This document shows positions 25,301-48,192 of a stretch of DNA of 64,000 nucleotides, piece by piece. A model generated the notes under the pieces. That model was not told the origin of the DNA and made no database searches. It saw only the letters and a list, made by a program, of their open reading frames with translations. Both the position numbers and the translations under genes were made by a program. Origin of the DNA: Boswellia sacra (taxonomy: Eukaryota; Streptophyta; Magnoliopsida; Sapindales; Burseraceae); contig SNVD02011590.1 of assembly GCA_013180625.2 (NCBI GenBank), positions 1-64,000 of the forward strand, in the 5' to 3' direction. Within the stretch, counting starts at the first letter, position 1. Each line of letters begins with the position of its first letter.

Positions 25301-25786
25301 ACCATCCCAACATGATTTAAAATTTGTTAAAAACTGTTTATTTCCAGTCATGTGCTAGGAACAACCACTGTCAAAATACCACAAACCGTTAGAAGTATAT
25401 TCAAGAGTAGTAAGAGCAACATGACATACTTTTTTGTCTTTCTTAACCCACTGCAGTTGTGATTTTGGTAACAGTTTGAATTGTTTTGACCTTTTATGCA
25501 AAAGATTTAACAATTTAAAGCATCTAGGCCTAATATGTCCCTTTTTACCACAAAAATAGCAAATAGGAATGAATTTCCTTACCTTTTCAGGACTGGATTT
25601 GAAAGAACTCAGAGGAGAAACAAATGTTTCACTGCTCTTGGAATTAGGACTTGACTTTAAAGAGTTAAGTTCAAAATTCTTACCTGATGTTGAAGCTTTC
25701 ACAAAAACTGTTTTTGATGAAGATGCAACATTACCTTCTGTGTATCCCAATCCATGTTTGTTAGAGTTGTCTCTTCCAAGACTCAA
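22303..25786 (-). pseudogene. Copia-1 pol (protease, integrase, RT, RNase H), degenerate
   Basis: Order on the minus strand: second knuckle CYFCGKKGHIRPRCF (about 25560), protease LWYFDSGCS then a stop in place of the next Arg (25352), a protease tail with NLISISQICDEKYTVNF (25170), GAG-pre-integrase LWHQKLGHLNYKDLVKL (about 25010), integrase core RSDHGKEFEN...PEQNGIVERKNRT (24630-24500), IN C-terminus to 23880, RT beginning near 23760, [20 protein letters not shown] (23510), [10 protein letters not shown] (about 23240), then RNase H FSDTDWAGNADDRKSTSGGC, STAEAEYIAA and LADLFTKALDTIRF ending CQLHE at 22303. Catalytic motifs are mostly visible, but at least five stops or frameshifts break it. 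Confidence 0.9.
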
Positions 25787-27215
25787 GACCTGATCAAGTT
25801 GGCTGCTCCAATTTTGAGTTGATCAACACATCTCTTGCTTTCAGCCAGTTCTGTTGTGATTTTCTCAATATGTGCTATTTTATCTGTCAAAACAGTCTCC
25901 AGTTCTGAGATATGGTTTTTAGCAAAGGATTTTTCACATTCCAGCACTTCAATCTTCTTCTTCAAGATTTTGATTTCTTCCTTCTAATTCAGCAATTCAC
26001 CATAGAGTGCATTGTATGTCTCTTGCAACTCTTCATAGTATTCTGGTCCATCTTCTTCATCTGAATGATCAACACTTGTTCTACAATTTTCTGTTATGTC
26101 AGACATAACAACTTTCCCTTTATCTGCTGCAGATGCTGTAAATGCAACAAATTGCTCATGCAATCTTGATCTTCTGACTCCGATTCTGATTCATCACTCC
26201 AAGTTACTGTCAGTCCTTTGTTTTTCTTCTTGAGATTAGCACATTCAGATTGAATATGCCCATAACCAGAACATTCATAACACTGAATCTGCCCTTTCTT
26301 TTCAGGTTGTTTTGGCTTCTTCTTATCATTCTCCTTGCTGAACTTTCTGAATTTCTCTTCACTTGAGTTTGATGGCTTTCCTTGGTTCTTTTTCCTGAAA
26401 TTTCTTTTCATGAACTTGACATAATTTCTTGTTAGAAAAGCAATCTGTTTAGAATCAGTTTCATCAAGCTCATCACTACATTCATCATCAGATTTTTCAG
26501 CTTTCACATTAAATGTAATGCTTTTACCTTTTTGCTTCCTAGTACTTTGATTTATTTTAAAGTTTTGGAGAATGCCAATCAGTTCATCAACTCTCATCTC
26601 ATCAGTGTTTTTAACTTCCTCAATGGCTGAGATTTAGGGTTGAAATTTATCTGGGATAGACCTAATTATTTTGCTAACAACTTCTGCATCCATGAAAGTT
26701 TTTCCAAGCATGTATGCCAAATTTGTAATGTGACATATCTTAGAGTAAAACTCAGAAATTGACTCATCCTCATGCATCATCAGATTTTCAAATTGAGAAT
26801 TAAGTCACATCAATTTAGATCTTTTAACAGATGCGGTACCTTCATGTTTTACCTCAAGTATGTCCCAAGATTCTTTGGCCACTTTGCACCTTGAAATCTG
26901 TCCGAAGTTATTTAAGTCCACTACAGCAAAAATTGCATTGAGAGCCGTTGAATTCCAGCTGGAACGTTAGTATTCTTCATCAGTCCATTCATCCTTAGGT
27001 TTTGGTTTGGAATCACCAAAAGCATTCAACTTTGTTGGCGGTGTCCATCCTTTAAGCACACTAGTCCATGCCCTGTCATCAAGAGATTTGATATACATCA
27101 TCATTCTTACCTTCCAATATGGGTAATTACCATCATCGAGAATAGGTGGTTGCGTTCCAGATCCTCCATTGCGAATAAACTCTATCCTTCCAGATCAACG
27201 TGATCGTTTTCTTCA
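25787..27215 (-). pseudogene. Copia-1 gag (UBN2-type with CCHC knuckle), degenerate
   Basis: Upstream part (27190-26620) reads PPILDDGNYPYWKVRMMMYI, then EVKHEGTASVKRSKLM and FENLMMHEDESISEFYSKI, typical of Sirevirus-type gag, with stops near 26990, 26805 and 26630. The open stretch 26597-26094 is Lys/Glu-rich and contains CYECSGYGHIQSEC (CCHC). 25965-25787 reads as a probable coiled coil (ECEKSFAKNHISELETVLTD). Start codon not determined; the primer site at 27231-27248 bounds it on the right. Confidence 0.8.
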
Positions 27216-27230
27216 CTTGTCTATCAGTGA

Positions 27231-27248
27231 ACCTGCTCTGATATCGAT
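27231..27248 (-). promoter_or_regulatory. Copia-1 tRNA primer-binding site
   Basis: Minus strand, immediately inside the 5' LTR: GATATCAGAGCAGGTTC. Close to the initiator-Met-type site TGGTATCAGAGC, with one changed base. Copia-2 keeps TTGGTATCAGAGCAGG at 43099. Confidence 0.75.
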
Positions 27249-27394
27249 TGATAGTTCTGGAGGTATGCAGTTATAAGAAATATAACAGTAAATTGTAATG
27301 TAAATTGGCACATGAGGATTTTTACGTGGTTCGGTTATAAAAACCTACGTCCACGGACAGCTATAGAGCTGCAATTCACTAAGTTCTTATTTGT
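27249..27394 (-). repeat. Copia-1 5' LTR, first piece
   Basis: Matches 19021-19165 of the 3' LTR. Interrupted after TTTGT (27390-27394) by TGATAAGTGTC, the start of the Athila-type LTR. The remainder lies at 41297-41848. Confidence 0.92.
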
Positions 27395-28815
27395 TGATAA
27401 GTGTCTATTTATATATCATTTTCATATCAATTCGTCCATGTTTCTTTGCTATATTCCTTGGTATTTTTATGTTTTTGTGTGTTTTTGATGTTTGTAGGAG
27501 TTTTGGAGCAACTTGCACAAAAATGGAGTAAAACCCTTCATTTTCACCTCTGCTAGTCAACCATCTTCTCGGATTTAATTGTATTGATATACAATGAACC
27601 CGATGACATATCATATACCGTTGAAAAGCTCTCGAAGTCTACTTTTTGGGAAATTTACGGTTTATGAATCCATTCAGTGTACCGAAAGTTGCAATCAAAA
27701 CAGTGTGAGAAGTGTAGAAATGTAATTCCACACATCACTGTAGCATGTATAATACGGGACACTGTAGCAGGTTACTGTAGCAGAGTATTTAAACACATTT
27801 TAGGTTTTTATTTTCATAACTTGAAGAGGGGAGAACGTGGAGGAGGCTGCATCTTTGGATTTCTCTCATCTCTTGGAGTTCTTGAAGGAGATTGAAGGCT
27901 TGGAAAGAGGAATAACTACAAATCCTAAGAGATTTCATCAAATTTGCTAAGTTTTCCCTTTCCCTTTCATTTTCTGGAATGTCTCCATATTGTATTGTAT
28001 TTGTATTCTATCTGAATATGTGTAACTAAATCTGAATTGGTTGAGGGTGATTTCGAAGCCCTTGATATGGTTTTTGTGAATTGATTGTGCAAGGAATTGT
28101 TATCCAATTCTCTAATTGAAGTTGCTTGTATTTTCCCTTGTTTAATGCTTATGATTGCTTGCTGGATTGTATTTGGGTGGCCAACTGAATATAATCTGGA
28201 TATTGTCTATTGCTAGACTAGAAATCTTAATCCGTAATTGTCTTGAATTTCTAATCCTTAGTAGCAAAATTGTGATCAGAGATTGCAATTGGAGAATACA
28301 ACCTAAGTTAAATAATCCGAGCTTGTGCGTTTATTGCTTAGATCAACCTATCTTTCTCATCGTAATGCTTCCATTGAATTAAACTCAGAGAGCTTGTTCT
28401 AGGTTGTTTAATGGATAGAGATTAAATAAAGAGCTTGTTTTATTTAACACAAAGTAAGGAAAGATTGGGATAACAGAGCTTGTTGTTATCTACGGTTGGT
28501 AATTTCAATGGTGTAATTGGATGACAATTCTACATTTAATTCGCAAATCCATATCTTGTGGTAGATGAGAGGATCCCTTAAACAGCTTTCTCCCATTGAT
28601 TTTTCTTCAAATTTATTTTCCTGTTTTGTTATTCTTTACTTGCATTTCTTATTTGTCATTTAGTAAATCAATTCACAAAAATCCCCCCTGTTTAGTTTTA
28701 TTGTTGCTGAAATACAAATCAATTTAGAAGCAATCCTCGTGGGAACGATATCTTTACTCAATGCACTTTATTACTTGTGCGACTCAAGTATACTTGCTAT
28801 TTTCAAACTGCATCA
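27395..28815 (+). repeat. Athila-type LTR A (1421 bp)
   Basis: TGATAAGTGTCTATTT...AAACTGCATCA. Preceded by TTTGT. Contains three CACTGTAGCA-like repeats near 27740-27785. Roughly 97 percent like LTR B over the first 500 bp by hand count. A third, solo copy is at 45873-47284. Confidence 0.92.
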
Positions 28816-28820
28816 GTTTT

Positions 28821-28838
28821 TGGCGCGTTGCCCGGGAG
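28821..28838 (+). promoter_or_regulatory. Unit A primer-binding site, damaged
   Basis: TGGCGCGTTGCCCGGGAG has lost one C and gained another relative to unit B, so pairing with the Asp tRNA 3' end is broken. Confidence 0.75.
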
Positions 28839-28928
28839 TGATTTTCTAATCGCTTTGTATTTTGTTTTCATTGTTGGGATTCATATTTATCTTTGTTTTT
28901 CTTTTCTGATTGTTTGTGTTTAGATAAC

Positions 28929-29747
28929 ATGGCCGTAAACTTCTATCAATTCATTAGCGGATTTGAGCCACAAGTACCATGGAGAGTAAATGAGGTAAGC
29001 ACTCCGAACATTGAACAACAACTTTCTGAGCTAACCTCTCTTGTGGAAAACATGGCTGTAGGAGATGTGCAAAAATCTTATGAATGTGGGATATATTCTA
29101 CGATGGAGCATCCAATCGACATGTATCCAACTTTACAAGAAGAATATATGGAACAAGCCAATGCCATGGGTGGATTTCCAGGACAAACGAGGCAATGGTA
29201 TGATCCTTTCTCTAGCACTTACAATGCTGTATGGGAAGATCAACATAATTTCAGTTACTGGAATCATCAACCAATCACTCCAAATGCCATACGAAATCGG
29301 CCACAAGGTTTTAATCAATCTAGAGTGCAGCAACCATTTCAAATGCAACCACCACCAATGCCACAACCAGCACCACAACCAGCTCCAGAAAACTCAGTTA
29401 TGTCACTCCAGGATATTGTTAATGAACTTGCCACTAACACAATGCAATTCCAGCAGGAAACTGGGGCAAGTATCCAAAACCTGGTAAATCAAATGGAACA
29501 ACTGGCTACTATCATGAGCAAATACGAGGGCCAAGGCTCAGAAGAATTATCTTGTCAAACGGTGATCAATCCAAGAGAGAATTCTTGTGCGATAACTTTA
29601 CAAAATGGAGAGCAATTAGATTTCCTGCCAAAGAAATCACAAACTGATGAAGGAGATGACACCACTTCCACCATGAACACACCAAATCATCTTCTAAGGT
29701 CATCTGAACTCAATTCCTTCTTATGTTACTCCTCCACCATGTCCTAG
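28929..29747 (+). pseudogene. Unit A shortened Athila-type gag
   Basis: Opens MAVNFYQFISGFEPQ at 28929, just downstream of the primer site, so the usual N-terminal capsid part of an Athila gag is missing. The remaining part holds the former zinc knuckle ECGIYSTMEHPIDMYPTLQE, in which two of the four expected ligand cysteines are tyrosines (TAT). It continues with GQTRQWYDPFSSTYN and a Pro/Gln-rich linker (about residues 140-185), then a stretch with SIQNLVNQMEQLATIMSKYE. The reading frame closes at 29747; frameshifts separate it from the protease. The same N-terminal loss and Cys-to-Tyr changes are present in unit B, so they predate the split of the two units. Confidence 0.85.
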
Positions 29748-30341
29748 CAGATTTGCAAAATCAAAGAAGGAGGGACAAGAACAAGAAATCCTGGAAACTT
29801 CTCACAAAATCGAGGTAAATATACCACTTCTGGATGCTATCGAGCAAGTACCTTGTTATACAAAATTTCTCAAGGAGTTATGCACCAACAAGATAAAGTT
29901 GAAGGGAAATGAGAAAGTAAGTGTGGGGGAAAATGTTTCAGCTGTATTGCAAAGAAAAATTCCTCCAAAATGCAAAGATCCAGGTACGTTCATCATTCCA
30001 TCACCATTGGTAATACCAAGTTTGAAAGAGCTATATTAGATTTAGGAGCATCTATTAATGTCATGCCATATTCTATTTATTCTTCTTTAAATCTTGGACC
30101 TTTTGCGAAAACTGGTATTACCATTCAGTTTGCTGATCATTTTAATGCATATACCAAAAGAGTTGTGGAAGATGTGCTTGTGCAAGTGAATCAATTGGTT
30201 TTCCCAGCAGACTCTTATGTTCTTGAAATAGAGGATGAGACATCTCCTAATCCAACACCGATTCTTTTAGGTAGACCATTCTCGAAAACTGTTAGAACCA
30301 AGATTGATGTTCATGATGGCACTCTGACCATAAGCGTTTGA
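29748..30341 (+). pseudogene. Unit A Athila-type protease
   Basis: After a linker (29760-29970, containing the purine motif AAGTGTGGGGGAAAA at 29919) the protease reads TIGNTKFERAILDLGASINV from about 30000, then FADHFNAY, PADSYVLEIEDE and PILLGRPFSKT. This is the retropepsin-like domain of Athila/Tat-clade elements (DLGAS active site). One base is missing before TIGNTK relative to unit B, and the end decays near 30340. Confidence 0.85.
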
Positions 30342-30965
30342 TGGCTAAGTAGTGATATGTTTTCACAATATTTTTGAGCAATGAAGGTACTCTAGTGCTT
30401 ACAGTCTGTATTTGCACAGTTGACATTGGTTGTTCTTTGCCACCACAATATTTTGAGTGTAACTCTCCAAGGAAGTATTGGATTGTAGCTATTATTGCGC
30501 ATACTAGGACGAAATTCCAATGAGTCAGGAAAAAAAAAAAAATATTTGTACAAGTGTCGCAAAGAAATGGAGGAGCTGTGACAACTTGAGAGACTAGAGC
30601 TATCACCACAAATAGGTATGATGTTTCGTACATTGAATTGCCTTTATCTAATGAGATACTTCTTCCTTTTGTGATGAAAGCCAATACCTTGGAGCTTAAG
30701 TCACTTCCAGATCATTTGAATCATGGATTCTTGGGTGAGAATGATATTTTGCCAGTTACAAAGGAAATGGGCCTTGCACGAATACAAGAAAGAGAAACTC
30801 GTCCGAATACTTACAGATCACAAAGTAGCTATTGAGTGGACAATTGTTGACATCCAAGGCCCATCCATATGCATTGACCGTATTTTGTTAGAAGAGGGAT
30901 CCAAGCCCATTAGAGAAGCACACCGGAAATTGGATCCTCCCATGATGGAACCAACGTCGGGCTGA
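30342..30965 (+). pseudogene. Unit A pre-RT segment, pol deleted after it
   Basis: Frames across 30580-30950 give ANTLELKSLPDHLNHGFLGE, then ILTDHKVAIEWTIVDIQGPS and RILLEEGSKPIREAHRKLDP. This is the conserved region just before reverse transcriptase in Athila/Tat elements. The match stops after PPMMEP at about 30950 and passes directly into the post-pol motif GACGTTAAACCAAGCGCTTA. No YxDD, RNase H or integrase motif follows. Unit B has the same join near 38770, so the pol deletion is ancestral to both. Confidence 0.85.
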
Positions 30966-31290
30966 GGACGTTAAACCAAGCGCTTATTGGGAGGCAACCC
31001 AATGTTTTTGAAAATAAAAAAAAAAGAAGAAAAGAAAAATAAAATGAGGTAATAATGATCGATTTTTGTGTCTCAAGGAGATTCCTTTCGTAGGCCATCA
31101 AATTGATCATGTTTTATCTCTCTTTGCCATCTGTCTCATTTGTTTTTATATTTTTTACTTGTTTTTTACTTTTGTTTGCTATTGTGTTGTAATCTCTTTT
31201 ATGTGTCTTTAGTTTCGTTTTTGCTCTTTTCTTTTCCTTCCTTTTGTTTAATTTGATTATTCCGCACTTCGAATTCATTTGTGCAACAGC
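30966..31290 (+). other. Unit A Athila post-pol non-coding segment
   Basis: Starts with the Athila-typical AAGCGCTTATTGGGAGGCAA motif (30978) followed by T-rich DNA. No gene. Confidence 0.6.
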
Positions 31291-32037
31291 TTGAAGAAAC
31301 ATTCAAGCGGGAGCTGAAGTCATTGCTCGAAGGTTTGAAACGTGCATATCTTGGAGTAAAACAAACTCAATTGCATTATCGGTAATAGCTCTCCTTTTTT
31401 GCTCTTCAATGGATGCCGATATCTTTGTGTCAAACCTTCGTAAATATTTCTCTTCACTTCCTCAAAATGCTGTGTATAAAATTTATAAAGTGTGGATGAC
31501 TAGACTTTGGGCGTTGATGCTCCTAAATGTGCCTGCGGAGATCCGATGGCTTATCGAAGCCAAGGTGAGATTGTCCGGTGAGCCGGACATTAATCTCGCA
31601 AAATACATGCCTGGTCTAGGAAGAGCTACTACGCCAAGAGGCGAAGAGCGAAAAGGTTACAAGTATGTTATAAATGTGCTAGATGGAATTGTAACCAGAC
31701 TTGTCGTTCATTAGGTTTTGCGTCCAGGAATAGAGAAGATAAACTTTCATTTATTAAGATTTGTTTGAGTAATGAGTCGCTGGATAATGTTTTGTTAACT
31801 CTCGAGTCACATTCTTGTGGACTTGTTCAGCGTGAATTGCTTAATCTATGGACACAATTTCGTGATGAATTTCAGTGTTATAGTCTATGGAATCTGACTA
31901 AAAACGACCCTGTTTGCCAGTTTATAAGAAAACTGGATGGGAAGCAAATCCCCGACTTCATAGAGACGTTTCAGGCCGTTACTGGACGTAAAACAGAGAA
32001 GCATGTGAGCCACATTCCAACTACTTGTATAATTTGA
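31291..32037 (+). pseudogene. Unit A ORF region of unknown origin
   Basis: Fragments on the plus strand: KRELKSLLEGLKRAYLGVKQ (about 31305), MDADIFVSNLRKYFSSLPQN opening at 31409, then NVPAEIRWLIEAKVRLSGEP and DINLAKYMPGLG. In a shifted frame come YKCARWNCNQTCRSLGF (about 31660) and LSNESLDNVLLTLESHSCG (31765), then RELLNLWTQFRDE and DPVCQFIRKLDGKQIPD to about 31960. The composition is protein-like and the Cys spacing in CARWNCNQTC could be a metal site. The family is not recognised. It could be a second captured host sequence or an env-region relic. The first fragment faintly resembles a second pre-RT copy. Confidence 0.5.
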
Positions 32038-32194
32038 ATGTGTGTTGTTGTTGTCGATTTTTATTTCTTTATGTGTGTTTTCGTTTGATCTGATTATCAA
32101 TGTTGTTTTTGTGTTGTGTTGTTTGTTGATTTTGTTTGTTTTAATTTCAAGTTTTCTTTTTGACAAACCATATGACTACCCCATGACATAAGTA

Positions 32195-32480
32195 CACGTG
32201 GGAGACAAGTGTGGAGGTTTTGTCAACTTCCACCGAAAGTATATCTCTACTTTTCATGCTTCACACTGGGATTAAGTGTGGCGGTTTTGTCAACCCCCGC
32301 CGAGTTATCATCCATTTTCCATGCTTCACGTGGGAAGACAAGTGTTAGGTTTTTTTGTCAACCTCGCCGACGCATATCCTCATTTGTTCCAAAATCTTGG
32401 GGCGATAATCTGCATCGAGCAACCCCCACCGAAATTATGTCCCCATGTGTCAAATTTGAGATTTTACGTGTGTATATATC
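32195..32480 (+). repeat. Unit A hairpin array upstream of LOG
   Basis: Repeats beginning CACGTGGG at 32195, 32262 (CACACTGGG) and 32327, spacing 67 and 65 bp, plus a decayed fourth. Each carries an inverted repeat around a TTTTGTC loop, for example GTGGAGGTT / AACTTCCAC. Same array as 40015-40290. Confidence 0.75.
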
Positions 32481-32585
32481 CATTTTGCATATTCTCAAAT
32501 GTCATTTTATAACCTGTCTTGCACTTGAATCGCATAATACCTAACGTACATCATTGTCTAGAACAAGTTTAGAGCACTTTTAGAA

Positions 32586-33238
32586 ATGGAGAAAACACCA
32601 ATTCGGCGATTCCAAAATATATGCGTATTTTGTGGATCGCAATTTGGTAAGATGGAGGTTTACCACAGCAGCTTTTGATCTTGGTAGGACATTAGCTGCG
32701 AGGGGTATTCATTTGATTTATGGAGGGGGTAGTCTTGGGCTAATGGGGTGTGAGTCAACAGCTGCATCCCTAGGAGGGAGCAAAGTTCTCGGCATTATCC
32801 CTAAACCATTAGCTGTACGAGAAATCGTAGGCAACACAATCGGGGAAGAGTTACAGGTCTCTAGTATGCATGAGCGTATTGCACATATGTTTGTTAAGTC
32901 CGATGCATTTATAGCTTTGCCGGGTGGTTATGGTACATTAGAGGAGATATTTCAAATCACCTCTTGGGCACAGCTAAACATCCATCGGAAACCCATTGGT
33001 TTTGTTAAATGTTAATAATTTTTTTGATGGTTTGTTGTCCTTTCTTGATCAAGCTGTAGAAAAAAATTTCATCTCACCATGCATCGATGCCAAATCCTTG
33101 TTACGCTTCAAACGGCATGGGATTAATTGACAAACTGACAAGAATTCATCTACTTCGCCTGATCCAACAACAGCTCGGATTGATTGGTTTGGAGAAGGCA
33201 ATAAGAGGCGTAAACGGGATTTAACACTCCATCTGTAA
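32586..33238 (+). pseudogene. Unit A captured LOG-type gene (cytokinin riboside 5'-monophosphate phosphoribohydrolase-like)
   Basis: Intronless sense copy, ATG at 32586, TAA at 33236-33238. LOG enzymes release free cytokinin bases from their riboside monophosphates in the cytosol. Motifs: RICVFCGS-type N-terminus (NICVFCGSQFG), the nucleotide-site motif GGGSLGLMG (about 32727-32755, intact here), MHERIAHM, and PGGYGTLEE (about 32920-32945, intact). Typical plant LOG genes have several introns, so this is a cDNA-derived copy. Breaks: missing bases at about 32650 shift the frame early, an extra base near 33002 gives a stop after KPIGFVKC, and the C-terminal third (33080-33160) has further changes. 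A 14-base A-run at 33595-33608 could be a relic poly(A) tail. Confidence 0.88.
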
Positions 33239-35216
33239 TCTCTATTTGCTGGTTTGCTTCGTTTTTTGTTTGCTTTCTTTTTATTGTGTTTATTTGAAGT
33301 TTTTCATGTTATTTAGTTTGAGATTTTTCAGGTTGTTTCTTTCCTCCCAGGTAATATTTTCTAATCTTGGTTTTTAGAGTGGTGGCTTAAAAAGTTTAAG
33401 TCCTCTTGAAACGCATTATGGATCTCTTTAATCTATAATGGCTGAATAAGGATGCTAACTTCTAAACTTTTTAGACCCATTCTAACTAACTTGTTTGTGT
33501 TTGTTGCCTTGTTGAACTTTGTTATTTTATGAGTGAGTTTAGTTTTGCGTAATTTAGAGTTGTTATGTGTTTTTATCTTTATCAGTTTCGATTCAAAAAA
33601 AAAAAAAACATTGTGGAAAAACCTGAGAATGGCAGAATATGGGGTTTTCGTAACTCTTGAAACGCTTCTCTCTCAATAAATCTGTAGTTTGTTTATTTCA
33701 TGTTGTTTGAAGTGTCTTGTTTCTTGTTTTGTTCTTTCATAATAAAGGTAAATAGGCTGGAAACCTAAAGTCTGCGGGCTACTGGTCCTAAGGATTGTTG
33801 AAATATACAATCTTGACTCAGGTGTAACAACGCCACGTACCTCTTTTCCTGTATTTTGTGGGTCGATGATAAGATAATGATTGAATTAAGAATAACTCTT
33901 GGAAAATGATAAATGATGCATGGATCTGTGTGCTTGAAATGTCTATTGGTTTTCGCTTTGCTTTTGATTCTTGCGCAACATTGAGCACTAAGCTATTATC
34001 ACTGAGTTATTTGTTCACTTAGAGAAAGTTTATGTAATTTAAATGTTTCTTCATATTTCAATGAATTCTAGAACTTGTTTGATTGTCACTCAAGGCGAAA
34101 TCCTAGACTGTGCAACATTGGGGAAATGATTTAGGCCATCTTTGGACCGTTTGAGCCTTAATAGCCAACCTTGATAGAAATTGATCCCTAGTTACCCCTT
34201 TGAGCCTCTGTAATCCTTTTCTTTGTTAACTCACTAAAAGATTTCCTAACCTAAAATGATTTTGTTCCAAACAGTTAATCCCTTACCTATGAGCATGTCG
34301 ATCATTCACAATTAAATTCTGAGCTATGTTCTGGTTTTGGGAAGTTAGAGGAGGTTGGGATGTATCATGAGCAATACAAGTGAGTTCCATTGTGTTTGCA
34401 AAAAAAAAAAAGCCAATCTGTACCTATCGTCCACGTACTTACACATTGAGGACAATGTGTTGTTTAAGTGTGGGGGAGGGGAAGTGTAATACAAAAAAAG
34501 AAAAAAAAGAAAAAAAGAAGAAAAAAAAAGAACAAAAGAAGAAGAATAAGAGATCTATACCCTTAATGTTCTTAAAAGAATGAAACAACAAAGTGTGGGG
34601 GTGTAGTTTTCTTTTGTTTTCTGCAAAAAAAAAAAAAAAAAAAAGATTGTGTGTTCTAAATAAGTTTGGGGGAGTAACCTGGTGAATTGAAATGAAGTTT
34701 TGTTATAGGCTTGAGCTCTACATAGTCTTGAATGATTTATGTGTTTGTGGTTGATTTGAGCCAAATTATTATCCTTTATCATACCTTCACCCAAGCCAAA
34801 CGTTACAAGCTTAATAAAGTCCTACTTGATCCTTGGTGTTGTGCATGTCTACATTAGTGGAGAGTGACTTGAAAAGCAGGCCTATGGAGTTCATTTATAC
34901 AAACATCTTCAATATTAAATATGATTCATTTTTATGCATAAACTCATCTGGGTTACAAGTGATTAGGTGAGAATGGCTCTAAACACACACACTTGAGGAA
35001 TTGAAGTGAAGCGAAACTAATCTTTGAGATGAAATTCTTGATTAAGTGCATTATTTTGAAGTTTTCCTTGGGTTATCATTAAGTACAATCTTTGAGGCCT
35101 ATTTGCAAGATGAAGCATTTGTGTGTTTTAATTTTTTGTTGATTCTGTTTCGGTTTAGTTTTATTTCATATTGTCGTAGTTGCTCGAGGACTAGCAAGTC
35201 TAAGTGTGGGGGAATT
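33239..35216 (+). other. Unit A tail between LOG and the next LTR, with repeated purine tracts
   Basis: No gene recognised. Holds four copies of an Athila-type polypurine motif, AAGTGTGGGGG or a variant, at 34466, 34591, 34662 and 35202; the last lies directly before the LTR at 35217 and is the likely functional one. Also A-rich runs at 33595-33608, 34400-34411, 34494-34545 and 34626-34644. Confidence 0.7.
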
Positions 35217-36629
35217 TGATAAGTGTCTATTTATATATCATTTTCATATCAATTCGTCCATGTTTCTTTGCTATATTCCTTGGTATTTTTATGTTTGTGT
35301 GTGTTTTTGATGTTTGTAGGAGTTTTGGAGCAACTTGCACAAAAATGGAGTAAAACCCTTTATTTTCACCTCTGCTAGTCAACCATCTTCTCGGATTTTA
35401 ATTGTATTGATATACAATGAACCCGATGACATATCATATACCGTTGAAAAGCTCTCGAAGTCTACTTCTTGGAGAAATTTACGGTTTATGAATCCATTCA
35501 GTGTACCGAAAGTTGTAATCAAAACAGTGTGAGAAGTGTAGAAATGTAATTCCACACAGCACTGTAGCATGTATAATACGGGATACTGTAGCACGTTACT
35601 GTAGCAGAGTATTTAAACACATTTTAGGGTTTTATTTTGATAACTTGGAGAGGGGAGAAAGTGGAGGAGGCTGCATCTTTGGATTTCTCTCATCTCTTAG
35701 AGTTCTTGAAGGAGATTGAAGGCTTGGAAAGAGGAAGAACTACAAATCCTAAGAGATTTCATCAGATTTGCTAAGTTTATCATTTCCCTTTCAATTTCTG
35801 GAATTGCTATGTATTGTATTGTATTTATGACCTTCTTGAACATGTGTAACTGAATCTGAATTGGTTGAGGGTGATTTCGAAGCCCTTGATATGGATTTAG
35901 TGAATTGATTGTGCAAGGAATTGTTATCCAATTCTCTAATTGAAGTTGCTTGTATTTTCCCATGTTTAATGCTTATGATTGCTTGCTGGATTGTATTTGG
36001 GTGGCCAACTGAATATAATCTGGATATTGTCTATTGCTAGACTAGAAATCTTGATCCGTAATTGTCTTGAATTTCTAATCATTAGTAGCAAAATTGTGAT
36101 CAGAGATTGCAATTGGAGAATACAACCTAAGTTAAATAATCCGAGCTTGTGTGTTTATTGCTTAGATCAACCTATCTTTCTTATCGTAATGCATCCATTG
36201 AATTAAATTTAGAGAGCTTGTTCTAGGTTGTTTAATGGATAGAGATTAAATAAAGAGCCTGTTTTGTTTAACAACAAAGTAAGGAAAGATTGGGATAACA
36301 GAGCTTTTTGTTATCTACGGTTGGTAATTTCAATGCTGTAATTAGATGACAATTCTACAATTAATTCGCAAATCCATATCTTGTGGTAGAGAAGGATCCC
36401 TTAACCACTTTCTCCCATTGATTTTTCATTCAAATTTACTTTCTGTTTTGTTATTCTTTACTTGCATTCTTATTTCATTTAGTAAAGCATTCAACAAAAA
36501 TCCCCCCTGTTTATTTTATTGTTGCTGGAAATAACAAATTCAATTAGAATCAATCCTCGTGGGAACGATATCTTACTTATCACTTTATTACTTGTGCGAC
36601 TAGTATACTTGCTAGTTTCGAACGCATCA
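35217..36629 (+). repeat. Athila-type LTR B (1413 bp)
   Basis: TGATAAGTGTC (35217) to CGAACGCATCA (36629). Preceded by a purine tract of unit A and followed by the unit B primer site, so it serves as 3' LTR of A and 5' LTR of B at once. Confidence 0.93.
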
Positions 36630-36635
36630 AGTTTT

Positions 36636-36653
36636 TGGCGCCGTTGCCGGGGA
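36636..36653 (+). promoter_or_regulatory. Unit B tRNA-Asp primer-binding site
   Basis: TGGCGCCGTTGCCGGGGA, six bases inside LTR B, complementary to the 3' end of plant tRNA-Asp as used by Athila-type elements. Intact, unlike unit A. Confidence 0.88.
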
Positions 36654-36742
36654 TTGATTTTCTAATCGATTTGTTATTTTGTTTTCATTGTTGATTCATA
36701 TTTTCTTTGTTTTTCTTTTCTGATTGTTTGTGTTTAGACAAC

Positions 36743-37417
36743 ATGGCAGTAAACTTCTATCAATTCAGTAGCGGATTTGAGCCACAAGTACCATGGAGAG
36801 TAAATGAGGTAAGCACTCCGAACATTGAACAACAACTTTCTGAGCTAACCTCTCTTGTGGAAAACATGGCTGTAGGAGATATGCAAAAATCTTATGAATG
36901 TGGGATATATTCTACGATGAAGCATCCAATCGACATGTATCCAACTTTACAAGAAGAATATATGGAACAAGCCAATGCCATGGGTGGATTTCCAGGACAA
37001 ACGAGGCAATGGTATGATCCTTTCTCTAGCACTTACAATGCTGGATGGGAAGATCAACATAATTTCAGTTACTGGAATCATCAACCAATCACTCCAAATG
37101 CCATACGAAATCGGCCACAAGGTTTTAATCAATCTAGAGTGCAGCAACCATTTCAAATGCAACCACCACCAATGCCACAACCAGCACCACAACCAGCTCC
37201 AGAAAACTCAGGTATGTCACTCCAGGATATTGTTAATGCACTTGCCACTAACACAATGCAATTCCAGCAGGAAACTGGGGCAAGTATCCAAAACCTGGCA
37301 AATCAAATGGGACAATTGGCTACTAGCATGAGCAAATTCGAGGGCCAATGCTCAGAAAAATTATCTTCTCAAACGGTGATCAATCCAAGAGAGAATGCTT
37401 GTGCGATTGTGCGATAA
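36743..37417 (+). pseudogene. Unit B shortened Athila-type gag
   Basis: Opens MAVNFYQFSSGFEPQ at 36743. Same shortened N-terminus, Cys-to-Tyr knuckle and Pro/Gln-rich linker as unit A, with a handful of substitutions. A repeated ATTGTGCGAT near 37405 causes a frameshift, and an insertion at about 37430-37475 repeats METGASIQNLTK from the upstream coiled segment. Confidence 0.85.
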
Positions 37418-38215
37418 CTTTGCAAAATGAAGAGCAAATGGAAACTGGGGCAAGTATCCAAAACCTGACAAAGAAATCACAAACTGATGAAGGAGATGAC
37501 ACCACTTCCACCATGAACAACACATCATCTTCTAAGGTCGATCTTGAAACTCAAATTCCTTCTATGTTATTCCTCCACCATTTCCTAGCAGATTTGCAAA
37601 TCAAAGAAGGAGGAACAAGAACAAGAAATCCTGGAAACTTCCCACAAAATCGAGGTAAATATACCACTTCTGGATGCTATTGAGCAAGTACCTCGTTGTA
37701 CAAAATTTCTCAAGGAGTTATGCACCAACAAGAGAAAGTTGAAGGGAAATGAGAAAGTAAGTGTGGGGGAAAATGTTTCAGCTGTATTGCAAAGAAAAAT
37801 TCCTCCAAAATGCAAAGATCCAGGTACGTTCATCATTCCATGCACCATTGGTAATACCAAGTTTGAAAGAGCTATATTAGATTTAGGAGCATCTATTAAT
37901 GTCATGCCATATTCTATTTATGCTTCTTTAAATCTTGGACCTTTTGCGAAAACTGGTATTACCATTCAGTTTGCTGATCATTTTAATGCATATCGCAAAA
38001 GAGTTGTGGAAGATGTGCTTGTGCAGGTGAATCAATTGGTTTTTCCAGCAGACTTCTATGTCCTTAAAATAGAGGATGAGACATCTCCTAATCCAACACC
38101 GATTCTTTTAGGGAGACCATTCTCGAAAACTGCTAGAACCAAGATTGATCTTCATGATGGCACTCTCACCATAGAGTTTGATGGCAAGGTGATATGTTTC
38201 AATATTTTTGAGGCA
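37418..38215 (+). pseudogene. Unit B Athila-type protease
   Basis: The stretch from 37739 is open through the protease: MKGNEKVSVGENVSAVLQRK, then TIGNTKFERAILDLGASINV (about 37845), PADFYVLKIEDE and ILLGRPFSKTARTKIDLHDG, to 38200 and beyond. The domain is complete in this copy. The purine motif AAGTGTGGGGGAAAA lies at about 37758. Confidence 0.85.
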
Positions 38216-38775
38216 ATGAGGTACTCTAGTGACTTCATTCTGTTTTTGCAGTTGACATTGTTGATTCTTTGCCACAACAATATTTTGAGTTAACTCGCAA
38301 GAATGGATTGGATGTAGCTATTAGTGAGCATATAGGGACAGAAAATTCCAATGAGTCAGGAATTTTGATACAAGTGTCCAAAGAAGTGGAGGAAGCTGTG
38401 ACAAGCTTGGATGAGACTAGAGCTATCACTACAAATAGGTATGATGTTTCGTACATTGAATTGCCTTTATCTAATGAGATACTTCTTCCTTTTGTGATGA
38501 AAGCCAATACCTTGGAGCTTAAGTCACTTCCAGATCATTTGAATCATGGATTCTTGGGTGAGAATGATATTTTGCCAGTTACAAAGGAAATGGGCCTTGC
38601 ACGAATACAAGAAGAGAAACTCATCCGAATACTTACAGATCACAAAATAGCTATTGAGTGGACAATTGTTGACATCCAAGGCCCATCCATATGCATTGAC
38701 CGTATTTGTTAGAAGAGGGATCCAAGCCCATTAGAGAAGCACAACAGAAATTGGATCCTCCCATGATGGAACCAA
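38216..38775 (+). pseudogene. Unit B pre-RT segment, pol deleted after it
   Basis: Open from 38269: MPQQYFELTRKNGLDVAISE, then LPLSNEILLPFVMKANTLEL and ILTDHKIAIEWTIVDIQGPS, to 38712. The reading ends with PPMMEP-like sequence near 38765 and joins the post-pol motif. RT, RNase H and integrase are absent, as in unit A. Confidence 0.85.
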
Positions 38776-39110
38776 CGTCGGGCTGAGGACGTTAAACCAA
38801 GCGCTTATTGGGAGGCAACCCAATGTTTTTGAAAAATAAAAAAAAAAAGAAGAAAAGAAAAATAAAATAGGTAATAATGATCGATTTTTGTGTCTCGAGG
38901 AGATTCCTTTCTAGGCCATCAAATTGATCAGGTTTTATCTCTCTTTGCCATCTGTCTTATTTGTTTTTATATTTTTTACTTGTTTTTGACTTTTGTTTGC
39001 TATTGTGTTGTTATCTCTTTTATGTGTCTTTAGTTTCGTTTCTGCTCTTTTCTTTTCCTTCCTTTTGTTTAATTTGATTATTCCGCACTTCGAATTCATT
39101 TGTGCAACAG
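38776..39110 (+). other. Unit B Athila post-pol non-coding segment
   Basis: Counterpart of 30966-31290, nearly identical, beginning with AAGCGCTTATTGGGAGGCAA at about 38799. No gene. Confidence 0.6.
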
Positions 39111-39836
39111 CTTGAGGAAACATTCAAGCGGGAGCTGAAGTCATTGCTCGAAGGTTTGAAACGTGCATATCTTGGAGTAAAACAAACTCAATCGCATTAT
39201 CGGTAATAGCTCTCCTTTTCTGCTCTTCAATGGATGCCGATATCTTTGTGTCAAACCTTCGTAAATATTTCCCTTCACTTCCTCAAAATGCTGTGTATAA
39301 AATTTATAAAGTGCGGATGACTAGACTTTGGGCGTTGATGCTCCTAAATGTGCCTGCGGAGATCCGATGGCTTATCGAAGCCAAGGTAAGATTGTCCGGT
39401 GAGCCGGACATTAATCTCGCAAAATACATGCCTGGTCTAGGAAAGAAGCTACTACGCCAAGAGGCGAAGAGCGAAAAGGTTACAAGTATGTTATAAATGT
39501 GCTAGATGGAATTGTAACCAGACTTGTCGTTCATTAGGTTTTGCGTCCAGGAATAGAGAAGATAAACTTTCATTTATTAAGAATGGTTTGAGTAATGAGT
39601 CGCTGGATAATGTTTTGGTAACTCTAGAGTCACATTCTTGTGGACTTGTTCAGCGTGAATTGCTTAATCTATGGACACAATTTCGTGATGAATTGCAGTG
39701 TTATAGTCTAGGGAATCTGACTAAAAACGACCCTGTTTGCCAGTTTATAAGAAAACTGGATGGGAAGCAAATCCCCGACTCATAGAAGGCGTTTCAGCCG
39801 TTACTGGACGTAAAACCAGAGGAAGATGTGAGCCAC
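39111..39836 (+). pseudogene. Unit B ORF region of unknown origin
   Basis: Counterpart of the unit A region. 39230-39496 is open: MDADIFVSNLRKYFPSLPQN, RLWALMLLNVPAEIRWLIEA, YMPGLGKKLLRQEAKSEKVT. A shifted frame then gives CARWNCNQTCRSLGFASRNR and, from 39588, MSNESLDNVLVTLESHSCGL to LDGKQIPDS. The two frames would be joined by one indel near 39480. Not recognised. It lies just before the hairpin array and the LOG copy. Confidence 0.5.
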
Positions 39837-40014
39837 AATCACAACTACTTGTATATTTGAATGTGTGTTGTTGTTGTCGAATTTTATTTCTTTCTTGTTT
39901 CGTTTGATCTGATTATCAATGTTGTTTTTGTGTTGTTGTTGTTTGTTGATTTTGTTTGTTTTAATTTCAAGTTTTCTTTTTGACAAACCATATGACTACC
40001 CTATGGCATAAGTA

Positions 40015-40290
40015 CACGTGGGAGACAAGTGTGGAGGTTTTGTCAACCTCCACCGAAAGTGTATCTCTATTTTTTATGCTTCACGTGGGAGACAAGTGTG
40101 GGGGTTTTGTCAACCCCTGCCGAAAGTGTATCTCCATTTTCCATGCTTCACGTGGGAGACAAGTGTGTAGGTTTTGTCAAACCTCGCCGAAAGCATATCT
40201 CATTTTTTCAAATCTTGGGGCGATAAATCTGCATCGAGCAACCCCCACCGAAAGTATGTCCCCATGTGTCAAAATTTGAGAGTTTTACAT
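40015..40290 (+). repeat. Unit B 67-bp tandem hairpin array
   Basis: Units start CACGTGGGAGACAAGTGTG at 40015, 40082 and 40149 (exactly 67 bp apart), with a diverged fourth to 40290. Each holds an inverted repeat around TTGTC: GTGGAGGTT / AACCTCCAC (40031-40053), GGGGTT / AACCCC and AGGTTT / AAACCT. The stem bases change on both sides. Confidence 0.85.
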
Positions 40291-40398
40291 GTGTATATAT
40301 CCATTCTGCATATTTTCATATGTCATTTTATAACCTGTCTTGCAATTGAAAAGCATAATATCTAACGTGTCTTACACAAGATTAGAGCACTTGTATAA

Positions 40399-41048
40399 AT
40401 GGAGAAAACACCAATTCGGCGATTCCGCAATATATGCGTATTTTGCGGATCGCAATTTGGTAAAGATGGAGAGTTTACCACAGCAGCTCTTGATCTTGGT
40501 AGGACATTAGCTGCGAGGGGTATTAATTTGATTTATGGAGGGGTAGTCTTGGGTTAATGGGGTGTGTGTCGACAGCTGCATCCCTAGGAGGGAGTAAAGT
40601 TCTCGGCATTATCCCTAAACCATTAGCTGTACGAGATATCTTAGGCAACACAATCGGGGAAGAGTTACAAGTCTCTAGCATGCATGAGCGTATTGCACAT
40701 ATGGTTGTTAAGTCCGATGCATTTATAGCTTTACCCGGTGGTTATGGTACATTAGAGGAGATATTTCAAATCACCTCTTGGGCACAGCTAAACATCCATA
40801 AAAAACCCATTGGTTTGTTAAATGTCAATAACTTTTTTGATGGTTTGTTATCTTTTCTTGATCAAGCTGTAGAAAAAAATTTTATCTCACCATCAGCGAG
40901 GCAAATCCTTGTTACAGCTTCAACGGCAGGGGAGTTAATTGACAAACTACAAGAATTCGTCTATTCGCCTGATCCAACAACAGCTCGGATTGATTGGTTT
41001 GGAGAAGGCAATAAGAGGCGTAAACTGGATTTAACACTCCATCTGTAA
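40399..41048 (+). pseudogene. Unit B captured LOG-type gene, nearly intact
   Basis: Intronless sense copy from ATG 40399 to TAA 41046-41048, 650 nt, one base short of an uninterrupted frame of about 216 codons, the normal LOG length (about 210-220 residues). N-terminus MEKTPIRRFRNICVFCGSQF. The single missing G at about 40547 lies in the nucleotide-site glycine motif and causes a stop. Frame resumes at LMGCVSTAASLGGSK (40554), then MHERIAHMVV, ALPGGYGTLEEIF, WAQLNIHKKPIGLLNVNNFF, and the C-terminus RKLDLTLHL. The Lys that follows the conserved Arg in canonical LOGs (MHxRK) is Ile here. Sequence tail and MHERIAH suggest a divergent plant LOG-like subgroup; this is from memory. No expression evidence can be read from sequence. 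Confidence 0.9.
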
Positions 41049-41296
41049 TCTCTATTTGCTGGTTTGCTTCGTTTTTGTTTGCTTTCTTTTTAGTGTGTTT
41101 ATTTGAGATTTTTCATGTCGTTTCTTTTGAGCTTTTTCAGGTTATTTCTTTCGTCCCAGGTAATATTTTCTAATCTCGGTTTTTAGAGTGGTGGCTTAAA
41201 AAGTTCAAGTTCTCTTGAAACGCATTCTGGATCTCTTCAATCCATAATGGCTGAATAAGGAGGCTAACTTCTAAACTTTTTATACCCATTCTAACT
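41049..41296 (+). other. Unit B tail, truncated
   Basis: Matches 33239-33480 of unit A, then breaks at CTAACTAACT (41291-41300) and joins copia-1 LTR sequence. The remaining 1.7 kb of tail and the 3' LTR are deleted. Confidence 0.85.
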
Positions 41297-41848
41297 AACT
41301 CACACAGACTCAATCAATAACTCATGTACGATTTCAACCACTCATACATGAATCAAAAGACTCAAAGAATCAAATCAATGAAGACATTCCTTTTGCGTTG
41401 AAGCTCTCTTCTATAAATTCATGGAATGCCGAACTCAAGAGTCTCTCACAACCAAAACAGCGAACATGTTAATCTCTAAATCACGTGATCAGCCGCTTGA
41501 ATAGCTTTATATATATATATATATAGTGAGAGGTCTGACCGAAATCTCTTAGAAATCCTGTAAAAATTCTAATCAAAATCATATTAGGATTAGGAGAAAT
41601 AAAATAAGAAGTGTTATAAACAAACTCCAAAAGGAATTAAGACAAATAAATATTCTCCTATTCTAATTAGGATACAAGATACTATATCCTAATCTAAAGA
41701 GATATTTATTACAAATCAAATACTTCCTAAAATATAATTCTAGAAACATTAAAATAGGAATAAAAATAATATTCTTGTTTTATCACAAGTTGATCAAAAC
41801 TCATCATGTGCATGACACATGCATATGTAGTAGATTTTGACAACAACA
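41297..41848 (-). repeat. Copia-1 5' LTR, second piece
   Basis: Matches 19377-19922. Ends GACAACAACA, followed by ATTAC (41849-41853), the right target duplication. Contains an (AT) run near 41510-41525. Confidence 0.92.
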
Positions 41849-41853
41849 ATTAC

Positions 41854-42258: not shown

Positions 42259-43097
42259 TGTTAGTGTCATGTTTGACACCTTGGCATGTGCCATGCCATG
42301 ATTGATTTCGGACAAACTTGTAATTAAAACATTGGTTTATATTCTTTCTTATTTTGCTGTTTCTAGAAGTTTTTATTAGGAAGTATTAGATTCGTATTGA
42401 ATATCTCTCATTAGATTAGGATATTATTATAGTATCTTAGTTCACTTAGGAGTATATTTTATTAGTTTCCTAATTTACTTAGGAGTTTATTTATATCATT
42501 TCCTATATTATTGATTGATATCTTAAACTTACCATTTGAGTTTGATTGAGATTCTACAGGATATTGATGAGTGGGGTAACTTAACTTCACACTATAGATA
42601 ATGTTATCGCATTTCAAGATATTGAGGGGAGCTTCAATGCCAAAGTTGAAATGTGTCTTTGATAATGTTTTATGAGAGTTTTATTCATGTATGAGAGGAT
42701 GTGATCGTGCATGAATTTTATTTAAGTCTGGTTGAGTTAGTATTCATTCAAGAGAACTTGCGAGTTGAGTGGTTATGTAATTCAGTGTTAGACATCATTG
42801 TTAAATGTTACTTAACAGTGTGTTGTTAAGTTATCAACAACAAAGAGTGAGCAGCGTCACTAGCATTTAAGATCTTGTTGGGATTTTGTTTTACAAATAT
42901 TAGGTTAGTGTGCGAGAGTGAGTCAACACTGTAAACGCACCTAAAGATTGTACAAACAAGAACTTAGTGAATTGTAGCTCTAAGCTATCCGTGGACGTAG
43001 GTTTTTATAATCAAACCACGTAAATCCTCTTATGCCATTTTATATTACAGTATTTTGTTATATTACATATAACTGATCCATACTTTCATATCTCACA
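42259..43097 (+). repeat. Copia-2 5' LTR (839 bp)
   Basis: TGTTAGTGTCATG...CATATCTCACA, preceded by AATCT. Contains the family segment GTGGACGTAGGTTTTTATAA near 42990, also present in reverse in copia-1. Confidence 0.87.
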
Positions 43098-43098
43098 A

Positions 43099-43114
43099 TT
43101 GGTATCAGAGCAGG
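43099..43114 (+). promoter_or_regulatory. Copia-2 tRNA primer-binding site (initiator Met type)
   Basis: TTGGTATCAGAGCAGG one base inside the LTR; complementary to the 3' end of plant initiator Met tRNA. Confidence 0.88.
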
Positions 43115-43164
43115 TTCACTAATATACAAGTGAAGAAAGATCACGGTAATTTGATGACATGAAA

Positions 43165-45872: not shown

Positions 45873-47284
45873 TGATAGGTGTCTATTTATGTATTACTTT
45901 TATATCAATTCGTCCATGTTTCTTTGCTATATTCCTTGGTATTTTTATGTTTTTGTGTGGTTTTGATGTTTGTAGGAGTTTTGGAGCAACTTGCACAAAA
46001 ATGGAGTAAAACCCTTCATTTTCACCTCTGCTAGTCAGTGATCTTCTCGGATTTAATTGTATTGATATACAATGAACCCGATGACATGTTATATACCGTT
46101 GGAAAGCTCTCGAAGTCTATTTTCTGGAGAAATTTACGGTTTATAAATCCATTCAGTGTACCAAAAGTTGTAATCAAAACAGTGTGAGATGTATAGAAAT
46201 ATAATTCCACAAGTCACTGTAGCATGTATAATACGGGGCACTGTAGCAAGTCACTGTAGCAGAGTATTTAAACACATTTTAGGGTTTTATTTTCATAACT
46301 TGAAGAGGGGAGAACGTGGTGGAGGCTGCAGCTCTGGAATTCTTTCATCTCTTGGAGTTCTTGAAGGAGAAAGGAAGCTTGGAAAGAGGAAGAACTACAA
46401 TCCAAAGAGAATTACATCAAATTTGCTAAGTTTTTCCCTTCCCTTTCATTTTCTGGAATGTCTCCATGTTGTATTGTATTTACCACGTTCTTAAACATGT
46501 GTAACTGAATCTGAATTGGTTGAGGGTGATTTCAAAGCCCCTGATATGGTTTTTGTAAGTTGATTGTGTAAGGAATTGTTATCCAATTCTCTAATTGAAG
46601 TTGCTTGTATTCTCCCATATTTAATGCTTATGATTGCTTGCTGATTGTATTTGAGTGGCCAACTGAATATAATCTGGTTGTGATTTATTGCTAGACTAGA
46701 AATCTTGATCCGTAATTGTCTTGAATTTCTAATCATTAGTAGCAAAATTGTGATCAGAGATTACAATTGGAGAATATAACCTAAGTTAAATAATCCGAGC
46801 TTGTGTGTTTATTGCTTAGATCAACCTATCTTTCTTATCATAATGCATCCATTGAATTAAACTCAGAGAGCTTGTTCTAGGTTGTTTAATGGATAGAGAT
46901 TAAATAAAGAGCTTGTTTTATTTAACAACAAAGTAAGGAAAGATTGGGGTAATAGAGCTTGTTATTATCTACGGTTGATAACTTCAATGCTGTAATTAGA
47001 TGACAATTCTACAATTAATTCGCAAATCCATATCTTGTGGTAGAGAAGGATCCCTTAACCAGCTTTCTCCCATTGATTTTTCATTCAAATTTCCTTTCTG
47101 TTTTGTTATTCTTTACTTGCATTCTTATTTCATTTAGTAAAGCATTCAACAAAAATCCCCCCTGTTTAGTTTATTGTTGCTGGAAATAACAAATTCAATT
47201 AGAATCAATCCTCGTGGGAACGATATCTTACTTATCACTTTATTACTTGTGCGACTAGTATACTTGCTAGTTTCGAACGCATCA
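45873..47284 (+). mobile_element. Athila-type solo LTR C nested in LTR D, TSD TATAT
   Basis: TGATAGGTGTCTATTT (45873) to CGAACGCATCA (47284), 1412 bp, same family as LTRs A and B. Flanked by TATAT at 45868-45872 and 47285-47289. Shows that this LTR family transposed elsewhere in the region, independent of the LOG array. No internal sequence remains, so whether this copy carried LOG is unknown. Confidence 0.93.
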
Positions 47285-47663
47285 TATATACATCACAAGA
47301 ATTTATTACAACTTATGACTATTTGTTCAAAATTAATTTTATATACACTGGTGACAAAATCAATACATCAGTTAATAGTCACCAAACAAAATCTCCCATT
47401 ACATACTAGGAGAATCAAGACAGTCCCCAAGAATTATATGCATACTGACTCTAGACTCCCTAAGAAAGCTCTGGAACATCTCTGGGATAAGCATCCTTCT
47501 GTGTACCTGTGGAGGGAGGGGGTGAGCCTAAAGCCCAGTAGGAAAGTTCTAACATTATACAAAATTATTCACATTCCACAAATATTCAATCGCAGGAGTA
47601 GACATCCAATAATAATATATCAAACTATTATGTTCGTTCACATATGAAATTTCTGTTCATATT

Positions 47664-48192
47664 CCCCTTGGATCCGTATACAGAACGGCTCATCCAAGGT
47701 CTGACACCTCATATCGAAATATTCGTGCTCCCCTTGGGTCCATATACAGAACGGTCCACCCAAGGTCCAACACCTTATATCAATATATTCGTGTTCCCCT
47801 TGGGTCTGTATACAGAACGGTCCACCCAAGGTCCAACACTTCATATCATTATATTCGTGTTCTCCTTGGGTCCGTATACAGAACGGTCCACCCAAGGTCC
47901 AACACTTCATATCATTATATTCTCATATCAATATATTCGTGTTCCCCTTGGATCCGTATACAGAACGGTCCACCCAAGGTCCAACACTTCATATCATTAT
48001 ATTCTCATATCAATATATTCGTGTTCCCCTTGGGTTCGTATACAGAACGGTCCACCCAAGGTCCAACACTTCATATCATTATATTCGTGTTCCCCTTGGG
48101 TCTGTATACAGAACGGTCCACCCGAGGTCCAACGCTTAGAATATCATATCCGCATTCTCCTTGGATCCATATACAAACGGCCCATCCAAGGT
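47664..48192. repeat. 66-bp tandem hairpin array in LTR D, eight units
   Basis: Units begin CCCCTTGG or CTCCTTGG at 47664, 47730, 47796, 47862, 47944, 48026, 48092 and 48157; spacing is 66 bp except two of 82 (an extra 16-bp TCTCATATCAATATA-type segment) and a last one of 65. Each has nested inverted repeats: outer CCTTGGGT / ACCCAAGG and inner CCGT / ACGG. In the first and last units the stem is CCTTGGAT / ATCCAAGG. Because 66 is divisible by three, open frames arise on both strands; these are artefacts. Confidence 0.9.

Follow-up and report, generated by a model that had tools for sequence, protein, structure and literature searches.

Two Athila-like elements with similarity to LOGL4 are said to be described in the abstract of Steinbauerova et al. 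from 2011. A LOG/YgdH domain was reported in Gypsy elements of Citrus and Populus in a 2022 article that cites Steinbauerova et al. 2011 (PMC9289625). According to another article, gag-pol is considered sufficient for the mobility of plant long terminal repeat (LTR) elements, and the roles of additional open reading frames (ORFs) are largely unknown (PMC7264820). Here we describe a stretch of 64,000 nucleotides (nt) from Boswellia sacra (contig SNVD02011590.1 of assembly GCA_013180625.2, positions 1 to 64,000 of the forward strand; hereafter the window), in which two decayed LTR elements, arranged as an array, each carry the remains of a LONELY GUY (LOG) gene and, ahead of it, of a gene resembling the cysteine-rich nucleic-acid-binding proteins (CRP/NABP) of plant RNA viruses. 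We favour, as the rather probable reading, that LOG and CRP form a two-gene accessory module of long standing in Athila-type elements, which may be aimed at the host and whose mechanism we infer.

LOG copy 1 occupies 32586..33238 and copy 2 40399..41048, both on the forward strand, in sense orientation and intronless. The initial annotation had placed an intronless sense LOG gene in both internal regions at a near-equal distance from the LTR, and this was borne out: 5191 nt separate the beginning of LTR A (27395) from the ATG of copy 1 (32586), 5182 nt separate the beginning of LTR B (35217) from that of copy 2 (40399), and the two copies match PF03641 with 89.7 bits (E 2.4e-25) and 134.8 bits (E 2.7e-39), respectively. 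Because these scores are far above the cut-off of 27 bits, chance likeness to LOG is excluded; the PGGxGTxxE motif is seen in both copies. The same annotation had placed the gene within a non-autonomous Athila-type retrotransposon, and its location in an LTR element that lacks autonomy and shows Athila-type traits is supported. The LOG is of plant type, the closest solved structure to the 162-aa piece of copy 2 being Arabidopsis At2g37210 (2a33, E 1.9e-47). A bacterial origin was ruled out, plant LOGs being the closest. Neither copy can give a full LOG protein, since copy 1 has several frame breaks, mostly past ~33000, and copy 2 has one near 40545, its frame being open from 40527 to 41048.

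The absence of introns, the sense orientation and the plant-type LOG are what would be expected had the element recently copied the spliced mRNA of a host LOG that still activates cytokinin, and captured genes are known in plant LTR elements (PMC7264820, in its excerpted part). Given, however, that the window LOG nests in one clade with 114 of the 120 listed LOGs, which belong to several families and none of which is more than 74% like it, that the differences between the two copies bear the mark of purifying selection, and that pocket residues are changed throughout the clade, we consider a recent capture very unlikely. The protein search had returned 2541 of 2615 candidates at E <= 1e-3, of which the best 120 were analysed. 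In the resulting tree the 114 database LOGs group with both window copies in a single clade (100/96). Its named members come from Reevesia (41 rows) and Diplodiscus (13 rows), both Malvaceae, Rhamnella (Rhamnaceae), Melia (Meliaceae), Rehmannia (Orobanchaceae) and Populus (Salicaceae), so that the clade spans about five eudicot families. Next to it stands a single database protein, P0056 (100/95), followed by five host-like rows (P0054, P0059, P0062, P0074 and P0115 from Xanthoceras) and then by Arabidopsis LOG3 and LOG8. Because the window LOG falls inside a large LOG clade of several plant families, the capture looks old, and the view that it is peculiar to the present element is not sustained.

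Between the window copies, the ratio of nonsynonymous to synonymous substitution rates (Ka/Ks) of LOG is 0.30 (157 codons, one-sided Fisher p 0.003), with the protease at 0.47 (p 0.08) and gag at 1.2 (p 0.77). LOG has thus been under purifying selection, and the ratio suggests that much of its divergence arose while it was still constrained. Kimura two-parameter (K2P) divergence between the copies is uneven, at 0.010 before the reverse transcriptase (RT) region, 0.031 in CRP, 0.055 in LOG and 0.098 in the spacer, a pattern that would fit exchange between related elements. We believe it fairly probable that LOG is an old accessory gene, lying in sense orientation between pol and the 3' LTR behind CRP, with intact forms in other eudicots; by extension, the whole LOG clade may be element-borne.

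The clade LOGs differ from the few host-like LOGs compared at their C-terminus and in their pocket. Both were counted in a set of 115 rows, made up of the 114 database rows of the clade and P0056. An exact C-terminal LxLxL ends 100 of the 115 (99 of 114 without P0056), usually preceded by a basic KKRK-like stretch, whereas none of the five host-like rows and none of 163 further proteins compared has it; these counts, like those for the pocket, hold for the sample rather than for plant LOGs at large, since the rows are the 120 nearest to the window and host LOGs are scarce in the comparison. LxLxL would be an ethylene-responsive element binding factor-associated amphiphilic repression (EAR) motif and KKRK a putative nuclear signal; the C-terminus of copy 2, RRKLDLTLHL, ends in LDLTLHL and has the LxLxL form. 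In the Corynebacterium LOG (CgLOG), whose numbering is used here, Lys100 belongs to the adenine and prenyl sites and Glu125 to the prenyl site (PMC4979012, excerpt). Across the 115 rows Arg99 is kept in 107, Glu122 in 112, Gly116 in 113, Thr119 in 112 and Trp129 in 114, and Lys100 is replaced by Met, Ile or Leu in 113 and Glu125 in 114. The two are jointly replaced in 113 of 115 (113 of 114 in the clade proper). Of the adenine/prenyl pocket residues Met96, His97, Lys100, Glu125 and Trp129, both window copies keep Met96, His97 and Trp129 and have lost the other two, with Ile for Lys100 and Gln for Glu125. Since P0056 combines the tail with an ordinary pocket, the tail may have preceded the pocket change.

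The initial annotation had raised the prospect of mobile cytokinin activation. Because Lys100 and Glu125 are replaced in nearly the whole clade, and because both window copies are broken, we consider it doubtful that the clade LOGs are cytokinin activators. A model of the clade member P0001 (pLDDT, the predicted local distance difference test score, 86.7) fits the Arabidopsis LOG (2a33, E 2.6e-23), its tail being of low confidence, and the retention of the fold, the phosphate site and, largely, Arg99 and Glu122, together with Trp129 in all rows but one, would be compatible with an enzyme that still releases active cytokinin, perhaps in another form, and alters host cell division to the element's benefit. 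We accord this only a modest chance in view of the joint loss of the two pocket residues and of work on CgLOG in which the enzyme became all but inactive once AMP-binding and catalytic residues had been changed to alanine (PMC4979012; the individual mutants are unnamed in the excerpt).

The second gene was absent from the initial annotation. In each element its broken frame sits behind the pol remnants and ahead of LOG: in element 1 at 31409..31966 on the forward strand, with the frame broken mid-gene and the end placed by homology, and in element 2 at 39230..39785 on the forward strand, in two frame pieces. The frame break falls in the same short stretch in both elements, at different offsets. 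The gene's second half shows it to be a relative of the CRP/NABP family of plant RNA viruses (PF05515, E 2e-8), with 34.8 bits in element 2 and 28.4 bits in element 1 at a cut-off of 23; the window pieces are below the cut-off for PF01623. An intact database protein, P0121, is matched over residues 2-70 (61%) by one piece of element 2 and over residues 70-182 (77%) by the other. With the second frame piece as query, 43 of 53 candidates were retained at E <= 1e-3; these relatives are 54-78% identical, and 23 of the 43 are 178-186 aa long. Each of the 22 full-length relatives that were aligned hits PF05515 and also PF01623 at E <= 0.01, the best E values being ~1e-8. No relative was found among the IMG/VR viral contigs with the CRP alignment.

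PMC12172455 ascribes silencing suppression to viral CRPs of this type, which it describes as transcription-factor-like and as having a nuclear localisation signal and a zinc finger; that of chrysanthemum virus B is said there to induce hyperplasia. In Nicotiana, circular DNA of LTR elements reportedly results from the action of a viral silencing suppressor (PMC12786186, excerpt). The element CRP might instead be a plant or element zinc-finger protein that converged on the viral CRPs or was their source: the PF05515 match covers a short basic, cysteine-rich region (~47-93 residues), the scores are modest (22.9-34.8 bits), and the likeness is known through Pfam families and not through direct viral sequences. 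That two separate Pfam virus families match every full-length member tested speaks for viral descent, and a non-viral origin seems to us rather improbable.

A genome-contig scan with the CRP alignment, made in one run, gave a single locus, L001, a 3330-nt plant contaminant contig (DAIEQH010000041.1) in a metagenome-assembled genome of Candidatus Nomurabacteria. It carries, in order, an integrase ORF (104-1594) with Pfam rve and H2C2 domains, an intact CRP ORF (1799-2347, 204 nt downstream) and a purine tract. Over 78% of its length, the L001 integrase shows 100% identity to a gene model of Melia azedarach; the contig is plant retrotransposon DNA that contaminates a reference genome collection. 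Against L001, the second CRP piece of element 2 has a Ka/Ks of 0.265 (p 1.4e-7) and is therefore under purifying selection; for the first piece Ks is saturated and Ka is 0.417. A search with the L001 integrase found 7955 relatives, of which the best 120 were listed. Among these is P0179, a Melia azedarach gene model in which integrase and CRP are fused. The CRP is thus borne behind a Gypsy-type integrase in at least one plant. The contigs of integrase row P0164 and CRP row P0131 are both 10263 nt long; of 75 contig sizes taken from the integrase listing, chromosome-scale and a few other rows being omitted, that one equals a CRP contig and none equals a LOG contig.

Outside the window, the evidence that LOG and CRP are linked is indirect and comes from equal-sized contigs of the same source. 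The two lists share three contig sizes, 8723, 2128 and 2425 nt, in each case with the same source; a fourth match in size (1006 nt) was excluded because the sources differed. In the 2425-nt pair LOG groups with Rehmannia (100/99) and CRP with Orobanche (100/99), both Orobanchaceae. Over all contig sizes, jittered sizes gave a mean of 0.64 matches and reached three in 133 of 5000 runs. Among CRP contigs of at least 2 kb, 3 of 11 equal a LOG contig in size and source, as compared with a mean of 0.023 for jittered sizes and three or more in 0 of 20000 runs, a figure weakened by the threshold having been set after the matches were known. No relative of the LOG protein was found in a scan of IMG/VR viral contigs. 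A scan of IMG/VR with the LOG alignment gave 28 distant LOG-like loci (L002-L029), 23-44% identical in the best segment, none of them plant-like by identity.

These contigs bear on the proposal that the LxLxL-tailed LOGs are a host subfamily (LOGL10-like) that has been copied into elements repeatedly. It draws on many matches being annotated as genes, on P0056 having the tail and keeping Lys100 and Glu125, and on nearly all matches being known without genomic context. We nevertheless think it unlikely, because 41 Reevesia and 13 Diplodiscus rows stand among the 120 listed, because LOG and CRP contigs coincide in size, and because Citrus and Populus elements with LOG have been published (PMC9289625, in excerpt). 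The Reevesia rows are gene models with many chromosome tags, which suggests amplification by elements. LOG gene families are not known to be nearly so large.

Returning to LOG and CRP as an old element-borne module, several observations weigh against it. Nearly all LOG relatives are known without surrounding genomic sequence, and none of the contigs examined carries an intact gag-pol, CRP and LOG together. LOG was not seen in the last 983 nt of L001, so the CRP-LOG pair is not fixed, and no REPUB or DITRI locus tags occur among the best 120 of the 7955 integrase relatives, so that the LOGs of Reevesia and Diplodiscus are only presumptively linked to elements. Between the window copies, Ka/Ks of the CRP is 0.75 for its second piece (p 0.45) and 0.61 for its first, values that give no clear sign of constraint. 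The predicted structure of the CRP is poor (pLDDT 56.5), and of five proteins scanned singly P0131 is just under the PF01623 cut-off and P0144 just under that of PF05515. On the side of LOG, the tail is missing in 15 of the 115 rows, the exact PGGxGTxxE string is present in 95 and missing in 20, P0056 has the tail and an ordinary pocket, and P0083 retains Lys100. The listed rows were chosen as those most like the window, a choice that favours shared residues, and the host LOG comparison set is small, with five host-like rows whose status is inferred, two Arabidopsis proteins and one bacterial protein.

Based on these sequence comparisons, we propose a model for the module. The CRP, putatively of viral descent, would dampen RNA silencing or alter host transcription, like its viral counterparts. 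In the LOG-derived protein the LOG fold and the phosphate site persist, as does, for the most part, the catalytic pair; with its base pocket changed, this protein would bind or hydrolyse a nucleotide other than the ordinary cytokinin precursors. Its short basic tail may carry it into the nucleus, and LxLxL could recruit a TOPLESS-type corepressor there. Together, the two proteins would favour the expression and spread of the element. On such a model the LOG-derived protein would act on host regulation and not as a plain cytokinin enzyme, and the CRP would counter silencing. We hold more tentatively, as a possibility only, that a widespread lineage of LTR elements carries an anti-host module in which a virus-type CRP is joined to a nuclear LOG that ties nucleotide or cytokinin status to TOPLESS repression of host defence. 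The details of that proposal, with the CRP blocking silencing or rewiring transcription and LOG refitted by the pocket change and a C-terminal repressor tail, are likewise speculative.

The array is ordered LTR A, internal region 1, LTR B, internal region 2, the latter ending at ~41300. LTR A (27395..28815, forward strand) starts TGATAAGTGT and ends GCATCA, and LTR B spans 35217..36629 on the forward strand. A degenerate primer-binding-site-like sequence (TGGCGC...) follows LTR A at 28821..28838 on the forward strand, and a better-preserved one follows LTR B at 36636-36653; we assign both, presumptively, to tRNA-Asp. A purine tract lies at 34468..34484 on the forward strand, and a second, at 35204-35214, adjoins LTR B. 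The array thus has two TG...CA LTRs, a primer site after the 5' LTR and a purine tract before the 3' LTR, features general to LTR retrotransposons. A third LTR, C (45873..47284, forward strand), was rejected as a member of the array because TATAT flanks both of its ends; we read it as a solo LTR that has a target duplication of its own. K2P divergence is 0.059 between LTRs A and B, 0.094 between A and C and 0.072 between B and C. Just behind LTR C, 47656-48196 is an array of 66-bp and related tandem repeats.

Internal region 2 is truncated by a foreign insertion whose start (41290..41850, strand unassigned) is 94% like 19371-19924. On either side of the array lies one member of an inverted pair that is Copia-like by sequence likeness (24564-27394 and 42952-45768, 79% alike), and the right-hand copy (42952-45768) is within the insertion that truncates internal region 2. 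Elsewhere in the window, 2359-3271 is a direct tandem duplication of ~455 bp, 94% identical.

The remaining internal sequence consists of remnants. In element 1 these are, all on the forward strand, a gag remnant (28842..29747), an aspartic-protease remnant (29913..30341) and a pre-RT piece (30590..30835); in element 2 they are gag (36695-37417), protease (37589-38293; PF13650 at 22.4 bits, just below the cut-off of 24.3) and pre-RT (38233-38712). The Athila, gag and pre-RT labels rest on layout and sequence likeness, and the gag remnants match no Pfam family above its cut-off. A Pfam scan that covered nine of the 60 listed ORFs found no gag-pol with RT, RNase H and integrase, what remains being limited to gag, protease and pre-RT sequence. 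Since only ~0.5 kb separates the pre-RT piece from the CRP gene, the three domains are gone. We class the window elements as non-autonomous derivatives of an Athila-type Ty3/gypsy retrotransposon. Between CRP and LOG are 67-bp tandem repeats, 2.4 copies in element 1 (32195..32353, forward strand) and 2.9 copies in element 2 (40015-40208).

One lineage of elements has seemingly long kept two genes, one for a protein like those of RNA-virus pathogenicity and the other for a hormone enzyme with an altered active site and a repressor-like tail. If this is true, virus counter-defence is joined to retrotransposon biology, and intact proteins are available for asking how plant elements evade silencing. 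It is also a caution against labelling these many LOG-like genes as cytokinin enzymes. The initial annotation had known of no LOG-carrying Athila derivative, but the feature is not new, since LOG/YgdH domains in plant Gypsy elements have already been published (PMC9289625, excerpt). What does appear to be new, as far as searches of the open-licence PubMed Central (PMC) literature reach, is that LOG has a CRP partner, an LxLxL tail and an altered pocket. No report of a virus-type (carlavirus-type) CRP in a retrotransposon came up in those searches, and the word LOG is absent from the main texts, supplements apart, of PMC7264820, PMC6317226, PMC11728184 and PMC11963269.

The window elements resemble those of Citrus and Populus in having a LOG domain inside a plant Ty3/gypsy element; in contrast, the window copies are non-autonomous and broken, and the excerpted text on the Citrus and Populus elements makes no mention of a CRP partner, an LxLxL tail or a changed pocket (PMC9289625). 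Orchid Gypsy elements with a captured N6-methyladenosine (m6A) demethylase domain likewise carry an extra gene, in many consensus sequences, but it is another gene in another plant group, and a second accessory gene is not mentioned in the same excerpt (PMC9289625). With the Arabidopsis LOGs At2g37210 (2a33) and At5g11950 (1ydh), the LOGs of the window clade have in common the fold, the phosphate site and the catalytic Arg and Glu. They differ from them by the replacement of Lys100 and Glu125 and, probably, by the LxLxL tail, and the window copies differ further in being intronless. Finally, the CRPs of carlaviruses, allexiviruses and mandariviruses (PF01623, PF05515) show the same basic stretch followed by a cysteine-rich finger and the same 3'-side position (PMC12172455, excerpt), whereas the element CRP stands behind the integrase of an LTR retrotransposon and has conserved N- and C-terminal parts that extend beyond the Pfam match.

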